A stretch of DNA of 28,554 nt, from positions 1-28,554 of IMG/VR virus record IMGVR_UViG_3300045007_000024; one strand, written 5' to 3'. Below, one piece after another: positions 3,699 through 28,223 of this stretch. Positions within the stretch are counted from its first letter, which is position 1; every line of letters begins with the position of its first letter. The position numbers and the translations under genes are program-made. Under the pieces are notes generated by a model. The model worked only from the letters and a program-made list of their open reading frames with translations. It had not been told where the DNA came from and did not search any database. The stretch comes from a virus.

Positions 3699-5875
3699 CT
3701 CTGAAATGCCTCACCAGCCGGCGCCCTGCCCTGCGGCTCCATTGCCGGCAGCGCTACCTGCTGGACCTGGCGCGCGCCGATCGACAGTTCGCGCTGCGTG
3801 CGCAGCTTCATGGCGTCGCGCATGATCGCCGCCTTGATGGTCTGGAATGCAGTCCTCTCTTCTGCGGTGAGCTTCGCGCCTTCGAGTTGTGCCTCAACCT
3901 GCGCGATCGACTGCTGCAGCATGCGGTCGAGCTCATTGTCCTGCATCTCGGCGTCAAGCTCCATCTTCGTCCTGATGGTCTCGCCTTTCTGGCGAATCGT
4001 CTCGACGGCCTTGCGGCCCTCGACCTCGAGTTGTCGATTTCCGAGTTCTTGCTGGAGCTTCTGGATCATCTGCTGCATCTGCGCGATGCGCGGGTCTTCG
4101 CCCTGCTGACCGAGTTGCGGGAAGAAGCGTTCGGCACCCTTGTAGCCGAGCGCGCCGAATACTTCTGTCGCCATCTCCTTGGTGTCCAGGCCCTGCAACA
4201 GGCCCGGGGCGAAGCCGGCGACTGTCTTCATGCCGAGCGCCAGGCGCTCGATGCGTTTCTGCGGATTCGTGGCGCCGAAACCGACGTTCACGTTCACCGT
4301 CACCATTCCCTGCAACATGGCATCGGTCACGCGATCGATGCCGAATTTCTGGAGCAGCTGCGCACGCTGACCGGCGACGGCCAGGACAATCTCGTCCGTC
4401 TCGTAGGCTTGCTCCATGCGGACGAGTTGCTTCAGCACCGGCTCGACCCATGTCTCGGCGAATACCCGCAGCTGGTATTCGGTCATCACGTTGGAGTCGT
4501 TCGATAGCATTTCCATGCCGCCGACCGTCTCGTTCAACTGGCGGTTCGACTGCACAGATCCAGGCGAGAAAGTACCGGCCAGCTCGTCGTAGTCCAGGCT
4601 CACGCGGTCCTGTTCGGCGTAGGCCGATCCCGTCACATCGCCCGGTGCGTCCCAGCGTATGTCGGCGTTGATGTCGTCCACCAGCGTCACGGAACCCGGC
4701 ACGTTCCGCGTCAGGCTGCGGTAGTCGATGTTTGCCGTGCGCTTGGCGAAATAGCGCTTATTCATGGCCAGCGCGACGTTGTCGCGGCGCTGGTTGCCGA
4801 CGTCGTTCGCCTCTTCCTGCAGTGTTGCCGTGAGCTCGTTGAGGCCGGGAGGAATCGGCTTGTGAGCCTCAAGCACGGCGAAGCCCATCACATAGGGACG
4901 CTCCTTCGGCCGCAGATGACGGTACTCATGGCGCAGCAGCACAGGATCGGAAAGCCGCAGGTCTGTTCCCAGCGTGTAGAAAATCCAGTCCTCGCCGTCC
5001 TGACGAATGATGTTGCGATGCACGAAAACAGTGTCGAAATCCGCAGTGGCGTGCGTGACGTCCATGCTGTCCTGACGCTTCTTGCCGTCGCGCGCCGCAC
5101 GAATCGTGTCGTACTGATTCGCGCCGGCTTGCTGAATCTCGCCGTCGCTGTACTCGATCCACTTGCCGTCGGCCATCTTCTCCTTGATATCGCCGATAAA
5201 CATCGGAATCAACTCGATGACGTAGGGCGTCGTTCCCATCGGATCGGCCCAGTCGGCCGCCGGCGAGATGCGCAGGTTCTCGATCGCCACCAGATCGATG
5301 CGCGGCTTGTCGCTGACGATGCGGCCGACCTCGCGAACCGCCGGCTGCCCTGCCTCGGTCAGAATCGAGTTTCCGTTTTCGTCGATCAGCGGATATTCGT
5401 CGGTGCGCTCTTCGAATTCCCATGTCTGGTGCGACACGACGACGCCGACGTTGAGCGCGTTCTGGTAGGCGCCGATCACGGTCAGGAACCACGGAATCGA
5501 GTCGTCGAGGCGATAGTTCAGCAACTCGGACAGCACGGCGGCCGACACCACCTGGCTCTTGTCGTTGCTGTTCTCGGCAGTGACGGATACCATGTCCGAC
5601 GTGCTGAAGAACGCCACGGCCGCCGCAGCTTCGTTGCGACGTATCGTCGCGCGTGTCTTCGGACGAAACCCCTTGGCGCGGAACTTGTAGCTGTCCGAGT
5701 AATACTTGCTGCCTGGAGCATGGCGGTTCGAGAAATGCGCCAACGCCTTCTCGATGGATGGACGCAGGCTGGCATCGAACCAGTCTGACGACTGCACGTA
5801 TGCGTCGCGCGCCATCGTCAGCCAGGCGTCGTCCTGTGGCTCCGCGACCTGGTTGGCGACTTGCGGTTCGTTCAT
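3695..5875 (-). CDS. Portal protein (P22-type length, 726 aa)
   Basis: This forms the dodecameric DNA gateway at one capsid vertex. It starts at the ATG at 5875, one base after the stop of the upstream gene; the frame is open further upstream but that stretch is coded by the neighbour in another frame. The N-terminal two thirds are alpha/beta with an early WLTMARDAY helix and GTTPYVIELIPMF about residue 220. The C-terminal part (about residues 590-690) is a long Gln/Glu/Lys-rich coiled coil, as expected for the barrel of podovirus portals. Length is close to the 725 residues of P22 gp1, and the gene follows the terminase genes. The last base of its start region lacks a strong ribosome site, so coupling to the upstream stop is likely. 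Confidence 0.85.
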   Translation of the reverse strand: MNEPQVANQVAEPQDDAWLTMARDAYVQSSDWFDASLRPSIEKALAHFSNRHAPGSKYYSDSYKFRAKGFRPKTRATIRRNEAAAAVAFFSTSDMVSVTAENSNDKSQVVSAAVLSELLNYRLDDSIPWFLTVIGAYQNALNVGVVVSHQTWEFEERTDEYPLIDENGNSILTEAGQPAVREVGRIVSDKPRIDLVAIENLRISPAADWADPMGTTPYVIELIPMFIGDIKEKMADGKWIEYSDGEIQQAGANQYDTIRAARDGKKRQDSMDVTHATADFDTVFVHRNIIRQDGEDWIFYTLGTDLRLSDPVLLRHEYRHLRPKERPYVMGFAVLEAHKPIPPGLNELTATLQEEANDVGNQRRDNVALAMNKRYFAKRTANIDYRSLTRNVPGSVTLVDDINADIRWDAPGDVTGSAYAEQDRVSLDYDELAGTFSPGSVQSNRQLNETVGGMEMLSNDSNVMTEYQLRVFAETWVEPVLKQLVRMEQAYETDEIVLAVAGQRAQLLQKFGIDRVTDAMLQGMVTVNVNVGFGATNPQKRIERLALGMKTVAGFAPGLLQGLDTKEMATEVFGALGYKGAERFFPQLGQQGEDPRIAQMQQMIQKLQQELGNRQLEVEGRKAVETIRQKGETIRTKMELDAEMQDNELDRMLQQSIAQVEAQLEGAKLTAEERTAFQTIKAAIMRDAMKLRTQRELSIGARQVQQVALPAMEPQGRAPAGEAFQR

Positions 5876-5876
5876 G

Positions 5877-6239
5877 TCATCCACGATCAGGCACCAGTTC
5901 GCTGCGGAAGTTGCGCGGTGCGGCGCGCAGGCTATCCATGGCCACGCTGACACGCTGACTGCGCGATATCCGGTAGCGCTCCAGCAATTCTCCGCCGGCA
6001 CGCACCACCTTGCGGCCTTCCGGGTCGATCTTGGCGATGTGCATCAGGAACCCCCAGCGGCCGGACAGTGCCATGTTCGTTACCTCGACTGTTCCTCCCT
6101 TCTCATTCACCGTCACGCGCCACATGCCAGCGAATGCCGGATAGGCTGACTCCAAGCGTGCAATCAGGTTGTTGGCCAGCGTCTGCGCCGCACCGGAAAG
6201 ATTGATGCCGGCGATGTCGGTAATGATCTGAGGAAGCAT
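5877..6239 (-). CDS. Hypothetical phage protein between terminase and portal (120 aa)
   Basis: Its ATG overlaps the TAA of the upstream 53-aa gene (TAATG). The N-terminal third is hydrophobic and helical (ITDIAGINLSGAAQTLANN), the middle has a beta-like GMWRVTVNEKGGTVEV segment around residues 38-53, and the C-terminal third is basic (ELLERYRISRSQRVSVAMDS). The position between large terminase and portal is often taken by small packaging accessory proteins, but I do not recognise a named family. Confidence 0.65.
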   Translation of the reverse strand: MLPQIITDIAGINLSGAAQTLANNLIARLESAYPAFAGMWRVTVNEKGGTVEVTNMALSGRWGFLMHIAKIDPEGRKVVRAGGELLERYRISRSQRVSVAMDSLRAAPRNFRSELVPDRG

Positions 6240-6400
6240 TAGTTCTCCTGCTGATACACGCCGCCAAACTCTTCAGGCGACTTGAACTGGCGTCCATTGC
6301 TGAACTCGTAGGCAACCGGCTTTTCACTCAGTTTCTCGCCTTCGACTTCTTTGCAGAGCGCCGACCAATCGAAGTCTTTGGTGCTCACGCCATCAGCCAT
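6239..6400 (-). CDS. Small hypothetical phage protein (53 aa)
   Basis: A strong GGAGGTGG site lies 5 bases before the ATG at 6400, directly after the large-terminase stop. The product is acidic and hydrophilic, with a DFDWSALCKEVEGEKL helix at residues 9-24 and an aromatic YEFSNGRQFKSPEEFGGVY segment after residue 30. It ends in a TAATG overlap with the next gene. No known family. The strong ribosome site and tight packing make it a convincing small gene in the packaging block. Confidence 0.7.
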   Translation of the reverse strand: MADGVSTKDFDWSALCKEVEGEKLSEKPVAYEFSNGRQFKSPEEFGGVYQQEN

Positions 6401-7912
6401 TTAAGCCACCTCCGGATAAAGTTCTGCCTCGCTGACCACCTGGTGCGTCGTGAATCCAGTTGCCCCTGTTCGCAACGCATCGGATCCGTGCGAGGCCCAG
6501 TTGTGCAGCGGGCCCTTCTTCCATGTACCGGCGTTGTCGTCCCATTCCTTCTGGTAGTTATCCAGCGACCGGATGCCGTCCGCGCAGTTCTGCTCGTCGA
6601 TCCAACACGTCATCAGGAATGCGCGCACCGACTCGATGCCGTCCAATACTTCCTCGAGGTTTTTCGGCCGAGGAACCTTCTCGATCGGTTTGATGCCCAG
6701 GTTCTCTGCCGCCTCCTTGCGAGACAAGCCGTTGTTGCCGAGCTCGCGCACGCTGATGTCGTGCGGCATGTAGTGCGTTCCGTACAGGTAGCCCCTGTCC
6801 CGCAACACCCTGGCGTAGTGCTGAATTCCCTCTCCGCTGTTCTGGTAGTAGTCGATCAGGCGATTCTCCAGCCCGACGCGCTGGTGGAACCAGATCGTCA
6901 TGCTGTCGTTCATGCCGAGATCCCAGAACGTGTTCACCGGAAGCGCGGGCTCCCACGGAACCTCGCGGAGCCTTCCTTTGCTGCGCAGGTAGGTCATCTG
7001 CGTACCGTAGAAGGCCCCTTCGATGGCGACTTCGAAGGCTTCATCCGGCGTGCTCGGGAACTCCTGCTTCATCTCCTCGCCCTGCTCCTCCGCTTTCTTG
7101 ACATACCAGGCCATCTGCTCTGTGTCGAGCGTGATACCGTGCTTCGCCTTCAGCTTGGCGAAGTAGTCGATGTGCTTCGCCTCAAACACCACGCCGGCCG
7201 GATCGATCCGGTAGCGCTGGTCCTGCCACCAAGCGAAGAAATGGAACTTGTAGTCCATCTTCGTCGGCGCCTTTCCTGCTTCAAGCAGCTTGCGAGAGCG
7301 CTGGCAGAGCTCGTAGAACTCACCGGCGCGCCCCTCCGCCGTGCTCTCGACAAACACGAAATGCCCGGCATGCACGGCATTCAGCGCGCCAGTCCTGATC
7401 TCCTGCGCCTTCTCCGGGTACTTGCGGCAAATCTTCCCGTACTCGGAGACATGCAGGTACTGCAGCGTTCCGGATCGCATCGACGTTCCGACGCGGATGC
7501 TGCTGTTGTTGCTCAATAAGAGCTCGCCGGCGTCGTTCTTGATCGCCCGCCGCTCGGCCTTCAGCCATTCCGGCAGGTTGTCGTAGGCAAACTTGATCTT
7601 GTCGCGGAAGAACACCAGCGCGTCTTCCTTGTTGTGCGCGATCACGCCCGCCCGGACGTTGCTGTTGAACAAACATCTGTCCAGGATGAAAATCTGGATG
7701 AATGTCGTCATGCCCAACTGGCGGGCCTTCAGAATCACGTTCAAGAACCACATGTCGCGCAGCAAACGACGCTGCGCCCAGTTCAATCGAAACCTGACGC
7801 GCCTGCCGCCGGTATCTGTGATGTAGTACAGGTTGTCCAGGCGCCAGATCGGATCGCCTAGTTTTGCCTTTACCTCATCAACCTGCCGCCGGGAGGCCGG
7901 TGTCTGTTCCAT
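6401..7912 (-). CDS. Terminase large subunit (503 aa)
   Basis: This is the ATP-driven packaging motor and nuclease. Residues 62-70 read KARQLGMTT, the terminase-type Walker A. LHVSEYGK (about 153-160) is Walker B with catalytic Glu157. VFVESTAEG (186-194) is the coupling motif. The C-terminal RNase H-like nuclease begins with FWDLGMNDS at about 329-337, with Asp331 as a likely metal ligand, and ends with HGSDALR, a typical third acidic site. It overlaps the end of the small-subunit gene by 35 bases. The order small terminase, large terminase, 53-aa protein, 120-aa protein, portal is a standard packaging block. All core motifs look intact. Confidence 0.95.
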   Translation of the reverse strand: MEQTPASRRQVDEVKAKLGDPIWRLDNLYYITDTGGRRVRFRLNWAQRRLLRDMWFLNVILKARQLGMTTFIQIFILDRCLFNSNVRAGVIAHNKEDALVFFRDKIKFAYDNLPEWLKAERRAIKNDAGELLLSNNSSIRVGTSMRSGTLQYLHVSEYGKICRKYPEKAQEIRTGALNAVHAGHFVFVESTAEGRAGEFYELCQRSRKLLEAGKAPTKMDYKFHFFAWWQDQRYRIDPAGVVFEAKHIDYFAKLKAKHGITLDTEQMAWYVKKAEEQGEEMKQEFPSTPDEAFEVAIEGAFYGTQMTYLRSKGRLREVPWEPALPVNTFWDLGMNDSMTIWFHQRVGLENRLIDYYQNSGEGIQHYARVLRDRGYLYGTHYMPHDISVRELGNNGLSRKEAAENLGIKPIEKVPRPKNLEEVLDGIESVRAFLMTCWIDEQNCADGIRSLDNYQKEWDDNAGTWKKGPLHNWASHGSDALRTGATGFTTHQVVSEAELYPEVA

Positions 7913-9671: not shown

Positions 9672-10613
9672 CTACGCACCCAGCACCGCAACATACTTGT
9701 GACGCCGCACGACCATCACGTTGCGGACGTGCGTGCGGTTGATCTCGAAGGCACTGGCGCCGTAGCCGCGCCACTTAACGCGGCTCTTGGTGCTGTAGTG
9801 CTCGACGTTGGCAAACCAGATGCGCGGGTTGCAATTGGTGGCCTGGGTACACAAGCGGCGCTCGGCCATGACGCCGCCCTCGCCACCGTTATAGGCGGCA
9901 TCGCACATCGCCAGGGCGTTGTAGTCGTCTCCGACCAACTGCCTGACGCGCCGGTGGCAGTCGCGCACCTTGACCGTTACGGCGCGCAGCTGCATGCGCG
10001 GGTTGTAGCGGTCCGCCCATGCCCACCCGGCCAAACTCGCATCCGCACTCGCCACCTCGGCAAGCGCGTCGAAGCGCAAGCTGCCGTCGGCGCGATAGGC
10101 GCGCGTGAATTGCCCATAGCCGGCGCCCTCCTCTCGATCGGTCTTGAGCGTCGCCATCGGGTTCCAGCGCGATTCCTGTTCGACAAGTGCAGCGAGCATC
10201 GACGGAATCGGCATGCCAGGCCAGCGCGCCTTGATCTCCTGCTGCAGCACCGGCAAGTCGCGACTCGCCAATCCAGGAAGTTTCGCGTCTCCAGATCCGG
10301 CGCCGATGCCCGGGGAGGCGAGCGCGCGCGGAACCAGTGCGAGGAACAGCATGCCGGCAAGGATGCACAGTCCGACGAACACCAGTCCGGCGCCAACCGG
10401 GTTCTCCATCGCCTTCCGCGCGGCATCTCGGCTGCGCGCCTCGGCGAAGAACCGGCGCAGCACGTAAGCCAGCGGCGCCGCGACGAATACGCCGACCAGG
10501 GTCTGGGTCTGCACAAGCAGCTGCAGCCCGCCATCAGGATCGCTGTGCCAGAACCAGGCCAACACGACGAGAACAACAGCGGCCAGCCAGCCGTGACGCT
10601 TGACGATATCCAT
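9672..10613 (-). CDS. Membrane-anchored lytic transglycosylase endolysin (313 aa) with holin-like N-terminus
   Basis: This cuts peptidoglycan at the end of infection. The start at 10613 has a GGAGG site 6 bases upstream; the frame is open further but lacks support. Residues 8-21, about 38-52 and 74-96 are three hydrophobic segments, the last ending in ALA and resembling a signal or release sequence. The soluble domain follows from about residue 100. EQESRWNP (145-152, catalytic Glu147), EGAGYGQFT (162-170) and DAAYNGG (238-244) match the SLT-type lysozyme-like fold. The three-segment N-terminus attached to an SLT domain is odd: the protein may carry its own holin- or SAR-like export function. 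It is the first gene after the late promoter and its two terminators. Confidence 0.85.
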   Translation of the reverse strand: MDIVKRHGWLAAVVLVVLAWFWHSDPDGGLQLLVQTQTLVGVFVAAPLAYVLRRFFAEARSRDAARKAMENPVGAGLVFVGLCILAGMLFLALVPRALASPGIGAGSGDAKLPGLASRDLPVLQQEIKARWPGMPIPSMLAALVEQESRWNPMATLKTDREEGAGYGQFTRAYRADGSLRFDALAEVASADASLAGWAWADRYNPRMQLRAVTVKVRDCHRRVRQLVGDDYNALAMCDAAYNGGEGGVMAERRLCTQATNCNPRIWFANVEHYSTKSRVKWRGYGASAFEINRTHVRNVMVVRRHKYVAVLGA

Positions 10614-10732: not shown

Positions 10733-10761
10733 AAATAAAAAACCCGGCGCGCAGGCCGGGT
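10733..10761 (-). terminator. Intrinsic terminator 2 of the late leader
   Basis: On the minus strand ACCCGGC (10761-10755) pairs with GCCGGGT (10748-10742) around a 6-base loop, and is followed by TTTTTTATTT (10742-10733). It lies after the late promoter and before the transglycosylase gene, in the late direction. Confidence 0.85.
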
Positions 10762-10803
10762 GGAAGGCTTCCCCAAACGGAAGCGTAGGAGGACTCGGAA
10801 ACG

Positions 10804-10834
10804 AAAAAGCCCGCGCGGAAGAACCGGGCGGGCT
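10804..10834 (-). terminator. Intrinsic terminator 1 of the late leader
   Basis: On the minus strand AGCCCGC (10834-10828) pairs with GCGGGCT (10814-10808); the stem continues with a G-G mismatch and CCG/CGG and closes on a 5-base loop. A TTTTT run (10808-10804) follows. Its 5' edge is only about 30 bases after the predicted late start site, so transcripts would end almost at once unless the polymerase is modified. Confidence 0.85.
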
Positions 10835-10870
10835 TACGAAAACTCAGGACGCAACTTGGGCGCCAAGGAA

Positions 10871-10899
10871 ATTAGGCCACAACGAAATGCGCATGTCAA
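10871..10899 (-). promoter_or_regulatory. Probable late promoter (pR'-like)
   Basis: On the minus strand a perfect -35 TTGACA (10899-10894) is separated by exactly 17 bases from CCTAAT (10876-10871), a four-of-six -10 match. Predicted start is near 10864. Two terminators follow immediately, then the first late gene at 10613. The arrangement (promoter, short leader with terminators, lysis gene, packaging genes) is that of lambda-type late promoters under a Q antiterminator. Confidence 0.65.
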
Positions 10900-10903
10900 T
10901 AGT

Positions 10904-10929
10904 GGCTGATAATTCTGGCTGATAATTCT
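10904..10929. repeat. Perfect tandem 13-bp repeat next to the late promoter
   Basis: GGCTGATAATTCT occurs twice without spacing (10904-10916 and 10917-10929). It ends 4 bases upstream of the -35 hexamer of the minus-strand late promoter, where an activator or antiterminator could bind as two protomers in direct orientation. Nothing else in the neighbourhood shares this unit. Confidence 0.75.
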
Positions 10930-10981: not shown

Positions 10982-11269
10982 TCATCGTCCTCCACTCCCG
11001 ATGGCACCGACGCCGAGGAAAAACCCGAAGTCGTACCACCCGCCGTTGTTGTAAATCGCGTAGATCGCCACGTCATCCATGAATAGCGACAGGAACCATG
11101 CGAAAGGCAGAATCATTCCGTGCCAGAGTCCGTACCAGAACCCTACAGGTTCCTTTTCTGCCGCCTGCGCGAACTGCACATGGTCTGCACACCCGCTTAG
11201 TGTGAATACCAGCATTATGCTCAACCCTACGGTCAACGCGGACCTTGCGCCATAAGCCGTCTTCTTCAT
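10982..11269 (-). CDS. Small lipoprotein with conserved membrane segment (95 aa)
   Basis: The start at 11269 follows AAAGGTG at normal distance. Residues 1-30 form a lipoprotein signal (basic start, hydrophobic run, lipobox LSGC near residues 24-27). After a short linker comes FWYGLWHGMILPFAWFLSLF (about residues 45-64), a hydrophobic segment, then DDVAIYAIYNNGGWYDFGFFLG. I recall this WYGLWHG...NNGGWYDFG pattern from a widespread small membrane-protein family of unknown function found in bacteria and phages. It sits between the Q candidate and the late promoter. Superinfection exclusion or envelope modification is possible but not shown. Confidence 0.7.
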   Translation of the reverse strand: MKKTAYGARSALTVGLSIMLVFTLSGCADHVQFAQAAEKEPVGFWYGLWHGMILPFAWFLSLFMDDVAIYAIYNNGGWYDFGFFLGVGAIGSGGR

Positions 11270-11311
11270 GTCAATCACCTTTCTTCCAGCGCAAGTCCGG
11301 TTACGCCAGCG

Positions 11312-11689
11312 TCAAACCAAATCCCTCGCCATCGCCGCGCGCCAGAAAGCTGCGGCGGCCTCGACCAGAGCGTCCTCGATGCTCATCCTCCGAAACGACC
11401 ATACGGCGGCCTCATACACATGCTGCAGCGCAATCTTGTGCTGCACAGAAAGCCCGTCGATGATGGCGTCGCATACTTCTGCTGCCCACTCGTCGACGGG
11501 CTCGCACAGGTGCTCGAAGGCGTCTTCGCCGCTGACGCCGCCGCTGGCCAGACCGGCAGAATGGCCGCCGTAGCCCTGGACGCCCTTGTACCGCCGGCGC
11601 CAGTCGCCCCAGTTCGCCAGGTGCCAGTCGGCGCGCTCAGGAACTGTGCTCCGCAAGCGCTGGATTTCGTCGTATGGCAGGTCATTCAT
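11312..11689 (-). CDS. Candidate late antiterminator, Q-like (125 aa)
   Basis: The ATG at 11689 overlaps the upstream stop by 8 bases; an in-frame ATG at 11710 is an alternative. The protein is all-helical in pattern: an N-terminal WHLANWGDWRRRY segment, a Gly-rich loop, then CDAIIDGLSVQHKIALQHVY and FRRMSIEDALVEAAAAFW. A short helical protein with an HTH-like second half, encoded last in the early operon just before the late promoter, is where lambdoid phages carry Q (families Phage_antitermQ and relatives). The promoter-proximal terminators downstream strengthen the case. Assignment rests on position and general pattern, since I see no motif unique to Q. Confidence 0.5.
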   Translation of the reverse strand: MNDLPYDEIQRLRSTVPERADWHLANWGDWRRRYKGVQGYGGHSAGLASGGVSGEDAFEHLCEPVDEWAAEVCDAIIDGLSVQHKIALQHVYEAAVWSFRRMSIEDALVEAAAAFWRAAMARDLV

Positions 11690-11906
11690 TCGCATTTCTG
11701 GCCTTTCCATTCAACTTGTTGCCGATCTGCCTGACGAACTCGCGTTCGATCATGCCGAGCCTAGGATCGCTGACGGCCACCACCAGGATGCCGTCCTCCT
11801 GCCAGCCACGGCGCTTTACCTCCTCGGCATCCATCTGCGTCGGCTGGACGCCACCGAGCGCGCAGCGTGGCGGCGCTGGCTTGTTCCCGGTCTTGGTGAC
11901 GCTCAC
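11682..11906 (-). CDS. Small hypothetical phage protein (74 aa), GTG start
   Basis: The GTG at 11906 overlaps the RusA stop (GTGA) with an AGGTGG site upstream. The N-terminal 25 residues are Pro- and Thr-rich, and the rest (EEVKRRGWQEDGILVVAV then MIEREFVRQIGNKL) is alpha/beta. The central RRGWQEDGILVVAV segment looks like a buried strand after a helix. It lies between RusA and the Q candidate. I recall similar nin-region proteins but no named function. Confidence 0.65.
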   Translation of the reverse strand: MSVTKTGNKPAPPRCALGGVQPTQMDAEEVKRRGWQEDGILVVAVSDPRLGMIEREFVRQIGNKLNGKARNANE

Positions 11907-12358
11907 AGCAGCGCCACCTGAGGAGACCCCGGCGCAAGCAGCTGCCGTACAGTCACAACGACTCGGGCCTCGCCATCGGGCTCCATGCGTCGCCCGCTGT
12001 CCTCGCGCACCCACTTGTCGTCCTCGAAGGCAATTCCCTTCAGGGCGTCGTAGAGCACCTTGCGGGCGTTGTCGAGGTCGATGCACTGGACCGTGTCATC
12101 CCAGTTCGCAGGATCGCGCGCAGCGCGCCTGGCCCAGTCGAGCGGGCGCTGCGGGTAGAGCAGCACATCGACGGCCACGCGCCCCTGTAGCGGATGTCGC
12201 ATTCCGGCCTGCTTCGCCATCCAGGCGACCTCCTGCTTGTAGGCTTTGGCCTCGCTGCTCAGCGTGACGATTGCCCGGCTATGGCCGCGCGGAACGTAGC
12301 TGCGCCAGTAGCGGTTTGCCGACAGAGGGTACGGCAGAGTCAGGACGATCTCGGTCAC
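11903..12358 (-). CDS. rusA: RusA-type Holliday junction resolvase (151 aa)
   Basis: This cuts four-way DNA junctions made during phage recombination and replication. The start GTG at 12358 overlaps the upstream stop (GTGA). The N-terminus (LTLPYPLSANRYWRS) matches the RusA opening PP..N..WR. The catalytic region reads CIDLDNARKVLYDALKG (about residues 92-108), with Asp94, Asp96 and Asp104, followed by acidic FEDDKWV. These aspartates and the basic residues after them are the RusA signature. It is longer than E. coli RusA by about 30 residues, due to an insert around residues 70-88. It sits beside NinB- and YbcO-type genes in a nin-like operon. Confidence 0.92.
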   Translation of the reverse strand: MTEIVLTLPYPLSANRYWRSYVPRGHSRAIVTLSSEAKAYKQEVAWMAKQAGMRHPLQGRVAVDVLLYPQRPLDWARRAARDPANWDDTVQCIDLDNARKVLYDALKGIAFEDDKWVREDSGRRMEPDGEARVVVTVRQLLAPGSPQVALL

Positions 12359-12585
12359 GCCGCGGACTCCATCGCCTCGATCGACTTCGCCAGCTGCATC
12401 GCCTCCATCCGCGACGCGCACCGACCCTTGACCTCGTTGGCACCGCTGCGCGTCAGCATGAACCACTCGACTCCCATCACCACGACACGCGCGATCGTCC
12501 AGGGCTCGCACATCCACACGCCAGGCTTTTCGAGACGCCAAGCCCGTCCTGAAGCCTGTAGTTGCCCATGGTTGGCTTCGGTCAT
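12355..12585 (-). CDS. Small hypothetical phage protein (76 aa)
   Basis: The ATG at 12585 overlaps the stop of the P-like gene (ATGA) and its own stop overlaps the RusA GTG start, so the three are coupled. The product has a beta-like core rich in Trp and Val (WRLEKPGVWMCEPWTIARVVV, residues 16-36) followed by FMLTRSGANEVKGRCASRMEAMQLA. The pattern of short strands then an alpha helix suggests a compact domain of the type seen in small phage proteins. No family recognised. Confidence 0.65.
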   Translation of the reverse strand: MTEANHGQLQASGRAWRLEKPGVWMCEPWTIARVVVMGVEWFMLTRSGANEVKGRCASRMEAMQLAKSIEAMESAA

Positions 12586-12938
12586 GACCGGCCACCAATC
12601 CTGCGCTTCGCCTCGGCAAGCCTTGCCTTGGCAACGGAAATGTCGATCGTCGGCGCTGGCAATGCCGGTCCGGCTGGATTTCGGCGCAACGCGTCGCGGC
12701 ACATCGCGGAGAATTCTGGGCACGTCGGCGGGAAAGGCCGGTCGTCGAGCGCGTCGAGCGCCGCCCTGATCGCTTGCGGGTAGTCAGCGAATCCGCCGAG
12801 CTTGCGCGCCCAAAACGCCTTGACCGTGTCGGGGTCGATGCCCGCCCACATCTCGGCGAAGCGCCTGCCATACTGGCAGGCCATCTCGGCGAAGATGCGG
12901 TCAATCAACTCTTTCGGCAATTGCGGATGTGGGTTCAT
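12582..12938 (-). CDS. Lambda P-like replication protein, probable helicase loader (118 aa)
   Basis: It would bring the host replicative helicase to the O-like protein at the phage origin. The ATG at 12938 has an AGGAGC site 7 bases upstream and lies 38 bases inside the O-like gene. The sequence contains KELIDRIFAEMACQYGRRF, then MWAGIDPDTVKAFWARKLGGF, and DRPFPPTCPEFSAMC (about residues 66-80). That FPPTCPEF...C run is the feature I associate with the Phage_lambda_P family. It is shorter than lambda P (233 aa) and lacks its C-terminal domain, so it may be a minimal loader. The order O then P in the same operon supports the assignment. Confidence 0.7.
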   Translation of the reverse strand: MNPHPQLPKELIDRIFAEMACQYGRRFAEMWAGIDPDTVKAFWARKLGGFADYPQAIRAALDALDDRPFPPTCPEFSAMCRDALRRNPAGPALPAPTIDISVAKARLAEAKRRIGGRS

Positions 12939-13899
12939 GCGGATTGCTCCTGGGTGTCGTTACCAGCCCGCCGGTCAGCCCGGCGAGCGTTTCGGCTTGC
13001 TGATCCATGCGGGATCGGTACGGCGATGCGCGGGTATCCGGAATCGCGGCGCCGCCGGCGGAAATGTCCGCGGCGTCCCTGGCCCAGCGTTCGAGGATCC
13101 CGACGACGTAGCCGACGGGTATGCGCTCTCCCGGCTTTGCGCGGCGGGCCTCGGCGGCTGCCGCCTCGACGGTCTCCGGCGTTACGCCCTGCTCGGCAAG
13201 GCGCATCAGCCTCGGATCTGCCGGCTGAGCCTCGATTCCAGCCGCTCGCAGCGCCTTGGACAGGACTGCGGCTTGAGACGGGCCGGCGCGCGCAGCGATG
13301 CTTGGCCCGCCTACCTCTGCTTCCGGTGTAGACGCTGGCTGTTCGGAGAAAGAAGTAGGTAACGGAGACGGAGACGGTAACGGAGACGGTGCACTGCTAT
13401 TTCCTGCTGCGTGCATGCTGCATTGCGTGCTGGTAGCAGTGCTGATAGCACTATTATTTGTGCTGTCAGCAATAGTCTTAGTGTCTTCCTGCCCTGCTTT
13501 ACTTATCCTTGCAGCGTACTCTGGCATCATCTGCGCGGCTCTTTCGCGGCCGTGCTGCTTGCACAGCGCCATCCACCTGGCTTTCTCGCTGCGCGCCTCT
13601 GCGCCGGCTGCCCAGGGGTTATGCTCGCTCCAGTCATGGATTCTGTACTCGCCGTCCGTACCATCCAGGAACCCGACTTCGACCAGCGCCTTCACGAATT
13701 CGTCGTTCTTGCCGGTCCAGTCGGCGGCCAACTCGATGTCCTCGGCGGTCATGCCGGAAAGGTTTCCGTCCGGCCTGGTCTGCGCTGCCCACAAGAACAG
13801 GCAGACCAGGCGCCAAGCTCCGGCCTCTCCAACCCTGCGGATCAGCTTCTTCGTCTTTGGGTGAGACGGAAGGCCGATGCTGATTCTTGCGTCAATCAC
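12901..13899 (-). CDS. O-like replication initiator (332 aa), origin inside the gene
   Basis: The GTG at 13899 has an AGGT site and overlaps the upstream stop; it gives the N-terminus IDARISIGLPSHPKTKKLIR that I know from this phage replication family (DnaD/O-like proteins). Residues 1-140 are the conserved winged-helix-like domain, with WRLVCLFLWAA, GMTAEDIELAADWTG and HDWSEHNPWAAGAEARSEKA. A Ser/Pro/Thr-rich linker (about residues 160-220) follows, then a helical C-terminal part that would contact the P-like protein. The DNA for the linker carries repeated iteron-like elements (13358-13471). The larger upstream-open frame overlaps the 63-aa gene and is rejected. Confidence 0.8.
   Translation of the reverse strand: MIDARISIGLPSHPKTKKLIRRVGEAGAWRLVCLFLWAAQTRPDGNLSGMTAEDIELAADWTGKNDEFVKALVEVGFLDGTDGEYRIHDWSEHNPWAAGAEARSEKARWMALCKQHGRERAAQMMPEYAARISKAGQEDTKTIADSTNNSAISTATSTQCSMHAAGNSSAPSPLPSPSPLPTSFSEQPASTPEAEVGGPSIAARAGPSQAAVLSKALRAAGIEAQPADPRLMRLAEQGVTPETVEAAAAEARRAKPGERIPVGYVVGILERWARDAADISAGGAAIPDTRASPYRSRMDQQAETLAGLTGGLVTTPRSNPHEPTSAIAERVD
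13358..13471. other. Candidate replication origin with iterons inside the O-like gene
   Basis: Three copies of the 12-bp unit GTGCTGNNAGCA, each an imperfect inverted repeat, lie at 13427-13438, 13439-13450 and 13460-13471; the first two are tandem and the third follows after an AT-only-rich CTATTATTT. Two weaker TGCTG units occur at 13405 and 13416 with the same 11-12 bp period. Upstream, GGTAACGGAGACGG is repeated at 13358-13371 and 13376-13389. Iterons in the linker-coding part of the initiator gene are exactly how the lambda origin is built. A linker with repeated codons could also give such repeats, which keeps confidence moderate. Confidence 0.6.
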
Positions 13900-14083
13900 T
13901 TTGAACCTCACTCGCGCGGATGATCTCCCTGCACTTCCTCTCGCCGTCGAGCAGCGCCGAGAAGTCGAGGATGCTCTGGAAGCCATCCGTCCGGCCAGGC
14001 GCCGTGTGGCGCAGGCAGTCGGCCTTGTCCGGGCAGACATGGCGTGCCGGGCAGCGGGAGATGTCGTAGGGGAGCGTGGTCAT
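13892..14083 (-). CDS. Small Cys-rich phage protein (63 aa)
   Basis: The ATG at 14083 overlaps the stop of the PAPS-reductase-like gene (ATGA), and the stop overlaps the O-like start. The N-terminal part contains CPARHVCPDKADCLRH (residues 11-26), three cysteines and two histidines in a spacing that could bind zinc or an iron-sulfur centre. The C-terminal part (LLDGERKCREIIRASE) is helical. I recall short proteins like this in betaproteobacterial phages next to replication genes, without known function. Confidence 0.65.
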   Translation of the reverse strand: MTTLPYDISRCPARHVCPDKADCLRHTAPGRTDGFQSILDFSALLDGERKCREIIRASEVQSD

Positions 14084-28149: not shown

Positions 28150-28179
28150 CACTTAAAGGGAACAGAGCCTTTAACAAAA

Positions 28180-28216
28180 ACCCATTAGAGGGTATTGCAA
28201 AGACCCATAAACGGGT
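28180..28216. promoter_or_regulatory. Two operator-like palindromes
   Basis: ACCCATTAGAGGGT (28180-28193) and ACCCATAAACGGGT (28203-28216) share ACCC, six bases, GGGT and are 23 bp apart, about two helix turns. The second lies in the promoter spacer of the downstream HTH gene and the first just upstream of its -35. A further inverted repeat TTAAAGG/CCTTTAA lies at 28153-28174. They are likely binding sites for the HTH protein itself. Confidence 0.65.
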
Positions 28217-28223
28217 ATAGAGT
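28195..28223 (+). promoter_or_regulatory. Promoter of the HTH regulator
   Basis: TTGCAA (28195-28200), 17 bases, TAGAGT (28218-28223). Predicted start is about 28230, directly at the GTG/ATG (28231/28234), so the message would be nearly leaderless. The spacer contains one operator-like palindrome. Confidence 0.55.

Follow-up and report, generated by a model that had tools for sequence, protein, structure and literature searches.

Organization of the locus

The window that we analyzed is the entire 28,554-nt record IMGVR_UViG_3300045007_000024 of an uncultivated virus. On its minus strand, a replication initiation gene (12901-14040) is followed by a gene that weakly matches a helicase loader, by RusA (11903-12361), and by the gene for a candidate late regulator. 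On the 3' side of the candidate, the same strand carries a small lipoprotein-like gene, a promoter and leader, an endolysin gene, and the genes for the small and large terminase subunits; judged by position, the genes beyond terminase encode portal and scaffold. The features of the locus are as follows.

11312-11689, minus strand: candidate late antiterminator (Q-like), 125 aa, with a sigma-region-4-like predicted fold (nine divergent relatives, AlphaFold2 model, PDB fold matches)
10982-11278, minus strand: small gene for a lipoprotein- or membrane-protein-like product, after the Q-like gene and ahead of the late promoter (phrog_30702, function unknown, E 2e-25)
10917-10929, minus strand: tandem repeat copy 1, AGAATTATCAGCC (sequence, chance tests, related 13-bp-period repeat in L005-L007)
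10904-10916, minus strand: tandem repeat copy 2, AGAATTATCAGCC, 4 bp from the -35 hexamer (same basis as copy 1)
10894-10899, minus strand: -35 hexamer TTGACA, set apart from the repeat by ACTA (sequence)
10871-10876, minus strand: weak -10 hexamer CCTAAT, with a 17-bp spacer to the -35 hexamer (sequence)
10847-10864, minus strand: initially transcribed element GGCGCCCAAGTTGCGTCC, with the conserved motif TTGCGYCC; its RNA could form a 5-bp hairpin at the 5' terminus of the transcript
10837-10838, minus strand: C|G at a fixed distance after GYCC-N8, an inferred candidate pause position (comparison of leaders)
10802-10835, minus strand: intrinsic terminator 1 (stem 10835-10807 plus T5; the segment 10846-10800 folds at -20.0 kcal/mol)
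10733-10761, minus strand: intrinsic terminator 2 (stem 10761-10742 plus a T-rich tail; -13.7 kcal/mol)
9672-10613, minus strand: first late gene, endolysin/SLT-like, with N-terminal hydrophobic stretches (phrog_669 endolysin, E 1e-17; Pfam SLT, E 2.8e-4)

The initial annotation had reported a TTGACA-17-CCTAAT promoter, a perfect tandem of a 13-bp unit that stops 4 bp short of the -35 hexamer, and two intrinsic terminators in the leader ahead of the first late gene. We read the promoter from the minus-strand sequence at 10899-10871, found the repeat at 10929-10904, and obtained the two terminator folds listed above. Gene 10982-11278 was absent from that account; it intervenes between the candidate and the promoter, so the candidate gene is not directly beside the promoter. 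Its product has an LSGC motif, and two relatives of the locus (L008 and L014) carry an extra small ORF at the same place.

A strict promoter scan of the window between 9.0 and 13.5 kb found nothing and misses the late promoter because CCTAAT lacks an A at position 2. The window contains 15 copies of TTGACA, and the best -10 match at a distance of 16 to 18 bp is 4/6, reached in three of them and bettered in none; with three equally good pairs, the promoter alone is modest evidence. The endolysin-like ORF scored 20.9 bits against Pfam SLT, slightly under the 21.3-bit cutoff, and a Shine-Dalgarno-like GGAGG precedes its ATG at 10613. When the DNA of the region was compared with phage records, the sole match was a short endolysin stretch of Bordetella phage PHB04.

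The candidate antiterminator protein

The candidate had no Pfam match at an E value of ≤1 and no match in NCBIfam, including the RinA, ArpU, and DUF1492 activator models, and its match to the PHROG_79 "Q-like" family was weak (E 0.06 to 0.15). It fell below the 26-bit cutoff of PF06530 (Phage_antitermQ), for which the QuuD control scored 179 bits, and did not match PF03589 (lambda Q), which the lambda Q and phi80 Q controls did. The check proposed in the initial annotation, an HMM search against PF06530 and PF06323, therefore came out negative in Pfam at that E value, and with a PHROG Q-like E value of 0.15, membership in PF06530 is unsupported. The candidate family is uncatalogued by antiterminator family models. 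A profile comparison by hhalign with the QuuD/21Q group gave a probability of 7%, which is not significant, in an alignment that was colinear over 96 columns with the LxxWGxW motifs aligned; the same group profile recovers the 21Q structures 6jnx and 6p18.

An AlphaFold2 model built from ten sequences (pLDDT of 77) has helices at residues 5 to 13, 18 to 32, 54 to 78, 82 to 93, and 104 to 121 and a low-confidence loop at residues 36 to 52. Its best PDB fold matches are to sigma region 4 (6dv9, Z of 7.0 over 77 residues; 3hug, Z of 6.9 over 71 residues). A Z score of about 7 is middling, and region-4 folds are also found in activators and sigma factors. The Foldseek list did not include 21Q, which is no argument against the fold, and BFVD matches of the candidate include phage proteins annotated as transcriptional activator or regulator and sigma-70 region 4 proteins. 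The 21Q protein is described as sigma-R4-like, and its ring within the RNA exit channel is built from a short helix plus the two loops of that helix (PMC6606751). By analogy, the loop at residues 36 to 52 of the candidate may play the role of that part of the 21Q ring, and the candidate probably acts like a Q.

Recurrence of the locus in divergent relatives

All homologues of the candidate that we found are on viral contigs: two contigs are near-identical to the window, and nine are divergent, with 42 to 56% identity. Searches by tblastn with the candidate and with the L022 protein (a member of a second Q-like family, described below) found no match in 50,697 phage records, and no confirmed member of the candidate family was found in the genome_contigs that were scanned. 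The nine divergent relatives (L004, L005, L006, L007, L008, L014, L019, L020, and L021) make ten lineages with the window, and all ten have, in the interval from the Q-like gene to the late genes, a promoter-like pair, a leader, and one or more terminators, the hexamers of L019 being doubtful. At the matching place, L004, L005 to L008, and L020 have TTGACA, TTGACG, or TTTACA/T, and L008 also has two tandem terminators.

The gene order recurs as well. NinG precedes the Q-like gene in L006 and L021, YbcO does so in L014, and RusA does so in the window; downstream, L005, L008, and L020 have terminase genes, and L014 has a peptidase M15 endolysin. The Escherichia coli prophage DLP12 has the order ybcO-rusA-ylcG-quuD, where QuuD (Q) is a PF06530 antitermination protein. 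The strongest single support came from L004, where no such promoter adjoins the Q-like gene. Its next 3 kb contain a single TTGCGYCC, 1.8 kb away, between TTGACA-17-TTATCA (TTGACATTCGGAAACCGATAGCCTTATCA) and a terminator; we had derived the motif from the other loci before we looked here. The 1.8 kb of L004 that part the Q-like gene from the late promoter (5360 to 7170) hold an extra gene and a transposase-looking gene.

A conserved element in the leader

TTGCGYCC occurs once in the window. The pattern GYCC-N8-C is present in the leaders of eight of the nine members of the first set, which has a chance probability of 5e-7 under independence, although the loci are not independent and the choice of motif was post hoc. 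Exact copies of the 16-mer CGCCCAAGTTGCGTCC are present in the window, in the leader of L021, whose protein is 42% identical, and in the leaders of L022 and L035. The protein of L022 and L035 belongs to a different Q-like family with a weak PF06530 match. The leader motif GYCC-N8-C is common to two Q-like families; a model of the L035-type protein was too poor for use (pLDDT of 59.5). Relatives of L022 have TGGACGGCGCTCGTCCA in place of CGCCCAAGTTGCGTCC, which retains a hairpin. We rejected the 16-mer as a diagnostic by itself, since it also occurs in several coding-looking contexts. In L036 to L051 (for example, L037 at about 2430 to 2460), which carry the second Q-like family with its weak PF06530 match, the leader CCAAGTGGACGGCGCTCGTCCATAGGAAACGAAGCC is near-invariant, in contrast to variable spacers and downstream genes.

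The RNA could form a 5'-terminal hairpin over GYC in the window (P of 0.02), in L005, L007, L020, and L021, and in the L035 group, and leaders that can form it show an A-U/G-C exchange at the Y position. We rejected the RNA hairpin as a universal feature, since L004, L006, L014, and L019 lack it and it is weak in L008. The fold of the whole leader of the window is not unusual (P of 0.29), Rfam gave no match at the gathering score, and by eye we saw no consistent -10-like pause element in the leaders. Hairpin-type pauses of the his type exist, and the fixed spacing from the 3' arm of the hairpin to C|G resembles that of a hairpin-type pause.

The tandem repeat upstream of the -35 hexamer

Among perfect tandems in the window, the AGAATTATCAGCC repeat is the longest, with 14 bp at a period of 13 compared with at most 11 bp in 15 dinucleotide shuffles, and it scores best in TRF among the short-period arrays of the window. 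With up to three mismatches allowed, the tandem had no match in 100 shuffles. The half-site pattern RAATTRYC-N5-RAATTRYC is common to the window and L005 to L007 at about equal position. A search for the half-sites of the window at a 13-bp period gave GAATTGTC-N5-AAATTGCC in L006 and L007 (shuffle frequencies of 0.009 and 0.0025) and GAATTGCT-N5-AAAATATC in L005 (shuffle frequency of 0.027). These three lineages are mutually related, and the recurrence therefore counts as little more than one independent event. When periods 6 to 18 were scanned blind to the window, the best repeat in L006 and L007 had the 13-bp period of the window repeat and, like it, started at -30 from the -35 hexamer; this repeat was not individually significant. 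We looked for a 13-bp repeat at the other six of the nine relatives (L004, L008, L014, L019, L020, and L021) and did not find one.

Between L006 and L007, whose genes are 82% identical, the stretch running from the stop codon through the -35 hexamer has 45 of 46 nucleotides identical, and the spacer is near chance. The constrained DNA in this subclade is therefore that upstream of, and including, the -35 hexamer. A degenerate pattern of the repeat plus the -35 hexamer matched 17 stretches in viral contigs, with a candidate homologue upstream only in the window group, L006, and L007; we rejected the remaining stretches as further switches, since most resemble coding sequence, i.e., chance matches. 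Comparison of the loci found no conserved spacer motif in the promoters of the relatives, and the repeat of the window lies outside the spacer.

On this sequence evidence, the repeat is most probably a docking site, either of the candidate or of a partner activator. With six relatives lacking the repeat, binding by the candidate itself is plausible, and we place it just short of an even chance. The initial annotation read the repeat as a different protein-DNA arrangement from that of the lambda Q site. That reading holds for the position outside the spacer and has a counterpart in the L005-L007 subset; it does not extend to the six other relatives, and the direct orientation is no difference, since the phage 21 Q site is also direct (PMC6606751). 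Direct repeats were thus already known from phage 21, and the location upstream of the -35 hexamer is new.

Comparison with known late-gene switches

The closest parallels are phage 21 Q and the PF06530 proteins (QuuD of DLP12, HK639, and SF3). These are small proteins of about 125 to 165 aa encoded after RusA/Nin genes, they share the N-terminal LxxWGxW motif with the candidate, a sigma-R4-like fold is reported for 21Q, and there is direct-repeat DNA at the late promoter and a terminator before the late genes. They differ in that the candidate has no HMM match to them and the hhalign probability is the 7% given above. The phage 21 repeats are 6 bp long, 8 bp apart, and in the spacer (PMC6606751; the same in SF3), whereas those of the window are 13 bp long and upstream of the -35 hexamer. 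Lambda Q at pR' (PF03589) and phi80 Q share the order of Nin region, Q, promoter, terminator, and lysis genes; unlike the candidate, they are larger proteins of another Pfam family with a Q site inside the spacer, and their leaders (lambda by inspection) lack the GYCC-N8-C element.

AlpA of Pseudomonas aeruginosa and GafZ/GafY of the Caulobacter gene transfer agent, compared from the literature, are helix-turn-helix antiterminators with promoter-proximal loading and terminators in or near the leader (PMC7969949, PMC9371919, PMC11150451). The window repeat differs in position from the elements that AlpA and GafZ bind, which are between the -35 and -10 hexamers; GafY binds upstream of the promoter (PMC11150451), where the window repeat also lies. 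With the lambda, phi80, 21, AlpA, and GafZ sites all in the spacer, docking upstream of the -35 hexamer would be a variant.

Interpretation of the locus

We consider it highly probable that 10733-10929 is a Q-type late-gene switch operating with protein 11312-11689. The regulator gene lies after nin/rus genes and before lysis/packaging genes, and by sequence the window and nine relatives have the promoter 3' of the regulator and one or more terminators in the leader. What supports this is the anatomy itself, its repeated presence alongside a homologous protein, the gene order, and the fold resemblance. The lambda-style antiterminated late promoter proposed in the initial annotation has good support from nine other lineages with a homologue, from the order of the genes, and from the sigma-region-4-like fold prediction.

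A coincidence of an early-operon terminator pair with a chance promoter-like sequence would fit a promoter that by itself is not strikingly above chance, yet the same arrangement stands in nine other lineages and in the second Q-like family, and we regard this explanation as very improbable. RinA, ArpU, and DUF1492 late regulators have a region-4-like fold class and control terminase/late genes; they are activators, and the candidate has no HMM match to them. The protein could be a late transcription activator in the manner of RinA/ArpU, acting on the repeat at about -66 to -41, with terminators that just close upstream transcription. A repeat abutting the -35 hexamer is in the classical activator position, the -10 hexamer is weak, and the BFVD matches named above point the same way. 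GafY, an upstream-binding activator that works with an antiterminator (PMC11150451), also counts on this side. However, every relative has, within the leader, a terminator that follows the promoter, with a conserved leader element between the two, and an activator has no need of a terminator at that place. We find this account unlikely, and activator and antiterminator functions could occur together in one system.

A stronger rival, which we rate somewhat less probable than its opposite, concerns the repeat alone and can be true alongside a Q-type switch. The AT-rich cores GAATTATC, near -49 and -62 by sequence, would be an UP element bound by RNA polymerase alpha subunits or a host-factor site, and the antiterminator would use the spacer. 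The characterized Q-like sites that we compared are all in the spacer (PMC6606751, PMC7969949, PMC11150451; phi80 annotation), and six relatives lack the repeat; against this, L006 and L007 conserve the upstream segment and not the spacer, and the half-site sequence RAATTRYC, which goes beyond mere AT content, recurs in L005 to L007.

The start of transcription, the pause, the binding of the protein to DNA, and read-through are parts of the Q-type switch that we infer. In it, the minus-strand promoter at about 10899-10871 would probably be active early, giving a leader RNA of roughly 60 to 130 nt that is stopped by the two intrinsic terminators. The sigma-region-4-like protein would accumulate from the early/middle operon and be recruited to the late promoter, the tandem repeat recruiting either it or an activator. 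It would then join RNA polymerase close to the conserved leader element, early in elongation, and the modified polymerase would pass both terminators and go on to transcribe the genes for endolysin and terminase and other late genes. A more specific version is tentative and, taken whole, doubtful: an uncatalogued family docks on a 13-bp-period repeat upstream of the -35 hexamer, and a GYCC-N8-C|G pause, often with a 5' hairpin and common to a second Q-like family in its leader element, replaces the sigma-dependent -10-like pause.

The system is mostly familiar, and its unusual parts are the uncatalogued protein family, the position of the repeat, and the leader element. It adds an antiterminator lineage overlooked by annotation pipelines. 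If the repeat is the docking site, the antiterminator could load from upstream of the promoter, unlike in the published 21Q and AlpA structures, and the conserved leader element offers a testable alternative to the sigma-dependent pause. TTGCGYCC followed by a terminator is a sequence handle for late switches in uncultivated phages, and it worked in L004.

Two other repeats lie elsewhere in the window. The replication initiation gene contains three exact copies of GTGCTGNNAGCA at 13427-13471, beside an AT-rich stretch, and with ≤1 mismatch this sequence has 12 matches in the window compared with 2.4 expected in shuffles; the copies look like origin iterons within an O-like gene, as in lambda. 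A 23-bp imperfect tandem repeat, CAAAAACCCATAAAAGGGTATTG, lies at 28175-28218, close to the contig end.
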